Part shown: positions 17,409 through 17,871 of the stretch, in pieces
Position numbering within the stretch: position 1 is the first letter of the stretch
Layout of the letters: every line of letters begins with the position of its first letter
Source of the DNA: Bacilli bacterium
Lineage (GTDB): Bacteria > Bacillota_I > Bacilli_A > RF39 > UBA660
DNA length: 43,577 nt
NCBI GenBank assembly: GCA_017484125.1
Contig: JAFUTV010000024.1
Span: 1-43,577, forward strand
Direction of reading: 5' to 3'
Translations under genes and position numbers: made by a program
The notes under the pieces: model-generated
Seen by the model: the letters and a program-made list of their open reading frames with translations, nothing else
The model's database searches: none
Told to the model about the DNA's origin: nothing

Positions 17409-17435
17409 CTAGCACTCATCAAATTCAAATGCTAA
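17409..17435 (-). promoter_or_regulatory. Second, degenerate CIRCE over the htpG ribosome site
   Basis: CTAGCACTC, 9-bp spacer, AAATGCTAA: 7 of 9 consensus positions in each arm. It overlaps the AGGAGG of htpG, so it could act on transcription, or on translation as RNA. Confidence 0.6.
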
Positions 17436-17439
17436 TAAT

Positions 17440-17468
17440 AATATAATACTATTAATAGCACTTGTCAA
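17440..17468 (-). promoter_or_regulatory. SigmaA-type promoter of htpG
   Basis: Minus strand TTGACA (17463-17468), 17-bp spacer, TATATT (17440-17445). The -35 is within the upstream CIRCE. Confidence 0.7.
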
Positions 17469-17481
17469 TATTAAGTGCTAA
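17455..17481 (-). promoter_or_regulatory. CIRCE operator (HrcA site) of htpG
   Basis: ATAGCACTT, 9-bp spacer, AAGTGCTAA. Same spacing and -35 overlap as at clpB. Confidence 0.85.
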
Positions 17482-17642: not shown

Positions 17643-17670
17643 AAAAATCATCTTTTATAGATGGTTTTTT
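17643..17670 (+). terminator. Hairpin terminator upstream of the small peptide gene
   Basis: AAAAATCATCT/AGATGGTTTTT stem (with G-U pairs), 5-nt loop and T-run. It isolates the peptide gene from upstream transcription. Confidence 0.55.
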
Positions 17671-17733
17671 TATTTTAAAAAAGGAAATCAATTATTTACC
17701 TATAATAATATAATTAGAGGGAGGTGAAAGATA

Positions 17734-17850
17734 ATGCAATTAACTAGTGCTGAATTAATAAATATTCATGGTGGTTGTATAACACTTTTTGGACATACAA
17801 TTTCTAAATTAATAAGAATATTTAGAACTATCAATCTATTCTTTAGATAG
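17734..17850 (+). CDS. Double-glycine-leader peptide (bacteriocin or signal peptide precursor)
   Basis: A 38-residue ORF with a very strong ribosome site (GAGGGAGGTGA, 6 nt before ATG). The leader MQLTSAELINIHGG matches the double-glycine consensus L-S/T-x-x-E-L-x-x-I-x-G-G exactly. Cleavage after Gly14 by a peptidase-containing ABC transporter (C39 family) would release a 24-residue peptide starting with Cys15, cationic (K25, R28, R31, R38) and hydrophobic, ending NLFFR. This fits a bacteriocin or a secreted signal peptide. No transporter, immunity protein or sensor is in the window. It is a single gene between two hairpins. A TATAATAATATAAT stretch (17702-17715 region) is a likely -10. Confidence 0.75.
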   Translation: MQLTSAELINIHGGCITLFGHTISKLIRIFRTINLFFR

Positions 17851-17867
17851 CTATAAGCTATCTTTTT
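17845..17867 (+). terminator. Terminator of the double-glycine peptide gene
   Basis: AGATAGCT/AGCTATCT perfect stem, 3-nt loop and TTTTT; overlaps the stop codon. Confirms a short, separate transcript. Confidence 0.85.
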
Positions 17868-17871
17868 AATT

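Follow-up and report, generated by a model that had tools for sequence, protein, structure and literature searches.

The locus raises a simple question: is a 38-codon open reading frame, standing between two minus-strand genes, htpG and that of a LysM/Amidase_3 cell-wall amidase, a gene at all, and if so, what exports its product, what switches it on and what does it do? The window analyzed here is the whole stretch of 43,577 nucleotides from a Bacilli bacterium of the RF39 lineage (contig JAFUTV010000024.1); genome size, AT content and genes also point to an RF39-like host. Read in order, the locus presents the following features:

17643 to 17669, plus strand: upstream hairpin and T tract, intrinsic-terminator-like (-9.4 kcal/mol, z -5.3)
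17680 to 17707, plus strand: sigma-H-type promoter, AAAGGAAAT-N11-CTATAATA, with the layout AGGAWWT-N11-RNN[G/T]AATWW
17718 to 17727, plus strand: ribosome-binding site AGGGAGGTGA, read from the sequence
17734 to 17850, plus strand: peptide open reading frame, 38 aa, with the precursor MQLTSAELINIHGG followed by CITLFGHTISKLIRIFRTINLFFR
17734 to 17775, plus strand: double-glycine (GG) leader MQLTSAELINIHGG, 14 aa, from the translation and kept in homologues
17776 to 17847, plus strand: predicted mature peptide CITLFGHTISKLIRIFRTINLFFR, 24 aa, charge +4, amphipathic, from the translation and a charge count
17845 to 17868, plus strand: downstream intrinsic terminator overlapping the stop codon (hairpin 17845 to 17863 plus T tract, z -2.3)

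The initial annotation had described a double-glycine leader peptide with a strong ribosome site, a cationic mature 24-mer starting with Cys, a terminator on each side and no export or immunity gene nearby, and the sequence bears out this description. The leader carries L, E-L, I and G-G, all at consensus spacing, and GGGAGGTG lies 7-8 nt ahead of the ATG. The mature core has Cys as the first of its 24 residues, a net charge of +4 and no acidic residue. The upstream hairpin-T element and the downstream terminator isolate the peptide gene transcriptionally; for the latter, the search found one terminator vs. a mean of 0.0 in shuffled sequences. No export gene, immunity gene or partner peptide adjoins the frame.

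When the strict GG-leader pattern was applied to all frames of 25-60 aa (six frames, whole window), it fitted this one alone. By chance, second-order Markov sequence yields 0.013 GG-leader frames per window, and 0 in 300 simulations combined the leader with a ribosome site. The 38-codon gene is a real, overlooked coding unit. Scanning the 38-aa peptide against Pfam gave 0 matches, and NCBIfam returned likeness at the level of the leader alone, to the bacteriocin leader models TIGR03949 and TIGR01847. Upstream of the neighboring htpG, we also observed two CIRCE-like inverted repeats, at 17410-17435 (TAGCACTC-N9-AAATGCTAA) and 17455-17481 (TAGCACTT-N9-AAGTGCTAA), which suggests HrcA control of Hsp90.

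Relatives with a conserved leader and a variable core had been proposed as a check, and they occur within the genus and, beyond it, in six or more other genera of the family. Two homologues are from the same genus: the one in G002 adjoins the same amidase as in the window, and the one in G004 sits between a Fic-domain gene and gatB. Family searches and their follow-up added G066, G077, G075, G139, G157 and G185. In other genera, these stand-alone peptides, called orphans hereafter, occupy different chromosomal positions, such as directly behind enolase in G139 and G157. An alignment of seven members keeps L3, L8, I11, G13 and G14 of the leader invariant, with differing cores. Across all nine orphans, the cores have 22-26 residues, a net charge of +3 to +5 and no acidic residues; Cys is the first residue in six and stands at position 5 or 6 in the other three, and the helical hydrophobic moment exceeds that of shuffles (p < 0.1) in 8 of 9. 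G066 and G077, the only close pair, show 12 differences; these fall at every codon position and most are non-synonymous, and hence the pair gives no demonstration of purifying selection on the core. A further GG-leader frame in G137 (L109) was left out of the orphan count, having no Cys and no clear promoter. Recognizable orphans occur in only about 9 genomes of roughly 195, the host included, and the peptide is thus dispensable for the system to which it belongs.

The second proposed check, a C39-peptidase ABC transporter in the same genome, was also positive. The host assembly (1.18 Mb, 33 contigs, 88.9% complete) contains exactly one Peptidase_C39 match, on a different contig from the peptide gene. 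It is a 683-aa peptidase-permease-ATPase, and its best NCBIfam match is the peptide cleavage/export ABC transporter model TIGR01193, at a score below the cut-off of that model. Both hallmarks of a double-glycine secreted peptide, the leader and a C39-peptidase ABC exporter in the same genome, are present, and we infer that this exporter handles the window peptide. At the family level, a C39 protein is present in 183 of the 193 genomes sampled, and among the matches listed, leader-type matches fell in at least 84 C39-positive genomes vs. 0 of 10 C39-negative ones (counted by eye; Fisher p 0.005, approximate).

Downstream of the exporter gene lie a 148-aa stalk-like protein, two frames of 43 and 51 aa with GG leaders, and a hydrophobic frame of 49 aa. 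The operon peptides are located as follows:

L005:6964-7261, minus strand: exporter-operon peptides A and B, with GG leaders

Peptide A scores 28.8 bits against the class IIb model TIGR03949, over the cut-off of 21.5. From related loci we collected 61 A and B peptides. All 32 B peptides have a Cys at most 4 residues from the C-terminus, using a search pattern without a Cys requirement; all 29 A peptides have one near the C-terminus, a figure that is conditional because their search pattern required Cys. Directly behind the exporter operon, pilin-like proteins (KNGFIATS... / NKGFIAIS...) were seen in two genera (L005:5933-6727, minus strand; L189:3476-3802, plus strand).

The peptide gene and the distant exporter are linked by their promoters. 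Orphan and exporter upstream regions both contain AAAGGAAAT and, after a spacer of nearly constant length, a TATA-like box. The pattern AAAGGAAAW-N11-CTATAATA has 8 sites with 0-1 mismatch in the 1.18 Mb genome, every one upstream of genes; about 0.01 would be expected from composition, and eight genome-sized third-order Markov sequences contained 0. A control pattern with a spacer one base longer had no exact match in the host genome. The sites are:

Site 1: before the window peptide gene
Site 2: before the exporter operon
Site 3: before comEA-comEC
Site 4: before recA
Site 5: before dnaG-rpoD
Site 6: before a UvrD-like helicase gene
Site 7: before a MvaI/BcnI-family restriction-type nuclease gene (L097:2134-2892, minus strand)
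Site 8: before a SpaA-fold surface protein and sortase (L065:4564-6736, plus strand)

In NCBIfam, ComEA has matches to its own models, and ComEC scores over the cut-off of its model. The SpaA-fold protein ends in a sorting-signal-like tail (IPVLDT), and no methyltransferase was seen among the frames of the 4.5 kb read with the nuclease gene.

The link also extends to other genomes. A promoter matrix was built from exporter promoters alone, all from other genomes (25 of 27 entered the training). It placed the upstream regions of 7 of the 9 orphans no lower than the 96th percentile of 226 control genes, several of the top-scoring "controls" being regulon genes themselves. In two relatives, the orphan and exporter promoters are near-identical and lineage-specific, both carrying AAATTCGCGGTGTATATAT in G139 and ATATATAACTTATGAAGG in G004; as the shared stretches differ between genomes, the link holds within each genome rather than through one inherited block. 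In G002, the orphan lacks the promoter immediately upstream, as a KilA-N gene occupies that position at the contig end. Regarding such insertions, KilA-N genes stand ahead of the orphan in G002 (L004:194, plus strand), and in the same genome an antirepressor-like (BRO-N-like) gene lies between the sigma-H-type promoter and recA (L161:547, plus strand); the regulon seems to receive insertions of antirepressor-like genes. A DinD-like gene was seen behind comEC on L095.

Which factor could read this promoter? In Bacillus subtilis, sigma-H promoters follow RNAGGAWWW-N11/12-RNNGAATWW. The layout found here, AGGAWWT-N11-RNN[GTC][AT]AT, fits them, with TAAT rather than GAAT as the -10 of the window promoter and GAAT in the same register in several relatives. 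Among the seven sigma-70 proteins of the host genome, one of 208 aa is SigH-like: its five best NCBIfam matches all belong to the SigH group (PRK08295, TIGR02859; best 5e-31), at scores under the curated equivalog cut-offs, and its gene has a conserved neighborhood, mrnC-rlmB-sigH-(one gene)-nusG, as in Bacilli. The peptide gene has what marks a member of a sigma-H regulon, an AGGAWWT-N11/12-RNNGAATWW-type promoter near the start codon and a probable SigH orthologue in the genome, and SigH probably reads its promoter. Together with its homologues, the peptide makes up a new family of GG peptides that stand alone and belong to a predicted sigma-H/competence regulon.

Similar couplings are known. 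In Lactobacillus sakei (PMC3364868) and Staphylococcus aureus (PMC3486894), competence genes are driven by factors of the SigH class, which activate genes of the comEA/comG type. The host is alike in this; in contrast, its regulon is predicted from promoters only, and it has a Tad-type ATPase and no clear ComGA. We searched the host genome for a competence-pilus ATPase, and of its T2SSE matches one is the Tad/CpaF-type ATPase and a second is at C12:65269. The Tad/CpaF-type gene, at L204 (G000:C15), has CpaB- and TadB-like neighbors. Since no clear ComGA was found, we propose that the Tad pilus might serve DNA uptake in the host. Our search for literature linking RF39, competence and a sigma factor found none.

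In Streptococcus, the related SigX (ComX) couples bacteriocins to competence (PMC4497675, PMC4739728), and the host resembles it in placing GG bacteriocin-type genes under the same SigH-class control as DNA uptake. However, the host belongs to a different lineage of small genomes, uses a sigma-H-type promoter instead of the streptococcal com box, presents no ComCDE that we could see, and has its exporter operon itself in the regulon. With class IIb two-peptide bacteriocins (lactobin A/cerein 7B, TIGR03949), the window peptide shares the GG leader, a C39 exporter and a cationic amphipathic core; unlike them, it matches the model in the leader only, at 13.6 bits against the cut-off of 21.5, has an N-terminal Cys, and stands alone with neither an adjacent partner nor an immunity gene.

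The explanation that we favor, giving it slightly better than an even chance, is a GG peptide exported in trans under sigma-H/competence control that acts as a bacteriocin-like effector alongside the operon peptides. It starts from computed results: the coding unit, its conservation in the family, the common promoter, the single exporter and the SigH-like factor at a syntenic locus. RNA polymerase containing SigH would transcribe the peptide gene and, from distant loci under the same control, the C39 exporter operon, comEA-comEC, recA, dnaG-rpoD and the helicase gene. The C39 domain of the exporter would then cut the precursor after GG and release a cationic amphipathic 24-residue peptide with Cys at its N-terminus. 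This 24-mer would probably act on the membranes of neighboring cells as a bacteriocin-like peptide, together with the two class IIb-type operon peptides, and the coupling to competence would resemble that of streptococcal competence-coupled bacteriocins.

Several alternatives deserve weighing. That the frame is a decayed or spurious small ORF without function might be suggested by its tiny size, the lack of annotation and the absence of functional neighbors; it is very improbable, since chance is excluded for a leader, ribosome site, promoter and terminator together, and homologues stand at different chromosomal positions in other genera. Much more serious, although still somewhat unlikely in our judgment, is a pheromone of the ComC or plantaricin A type. 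It would leave the cell through the C39 transporter, and its sensing would turn on the sigma-H/competence genes and those for bacteriocins, with positive feedback through the sigma-H promoter of its own gene. The window peptide resembles those induction peptides in being a short cationic GG peptide with a C39 transporter, and in its size, charge and stand-alone position; one homologue matches the ComC model weakly (E 0.011), the regulon is common with comEA-comEC, and the genome has a LytTR response regulator. Receptor genes normally adjoin induction-peptide genes. However, in the stretches read none of the nine orphans has a receptor gene next to it, and no ComD/AgrC-type (HPK10) kinase was found beside the window peptide or anywhere in the 88.9%-complete genome. 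Its sole HATPase_c_5 match is an ordinary OmpR-type histidine kinase, and the LytTR regulator has no adjoining kinase, so the gene pair of HPK10 kinase and LytTR regulator that characterizes ComC/CSP-type pheromones is absent from the sequence at hand. The pheromone stays the main rival because the genome is incomplete and the LytTR regulator exists.

The orphan could also be a third subunit that works with operon peptides A and B, for example joined to them via the single Cys near one end of each. The Cys near the C-terminus of A and B and near the N-terminus of the orphan would suit such an arrangement, as would the promoter common to orphan and exporter operon. Most genomes with A and B nevertheless have no recognizable orphan, and the likely habitat is anoxic, which bears on the predicted joining by disulfide; we regard this reading as improbable. 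Bacteriocin-like action is more likely than a pheromone role on four grounds: class IIb-type peptides are encoded in the exporter operon; the core combines amphipathicity with positive charge; the search for an HPK10-type kinase found none; and a gene for a Rce1/CPBP-type membrane protein is convergent with the orphan gene in two genomes (G066 and G185). The Rce1/CPBP family includes known class II immunity proteins. From these points we infer that killing is a more probable role of the 24-mer than signaling.

For the biology of the family, a broader picture can be drawn tentatively, and we hold it to be rather doubtful as a whole: in a family of small-genome, largely uncultured Bacilli-like bacteria, one sigma-H promoter may tie natural transformation to a set of secreted peptides. 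Two of these would be class IIb-type peptides that keep a Cys at the C-terminus; some members of the family would add a third peptide, located separately and with Cys at its N-terminus, to join or prime the other two. Judging from the positions of these residues, a disulfide between peptides is possible, be it between A and B or between the C-terminal Cys of A or B and the N-terminal Cys of the orphan. Small orphan peptide genes of this kind escape gene finders and cluster-based bacteriocin mining because they are located apart from their exporter, and a lineage-specific promoter common with the exporter provides a means to find them. The same promoter gives a predicted competence-type regulon in a group for which we found no such report, and therefore peptide warfare or signaling and DNA uptake can be tested together.
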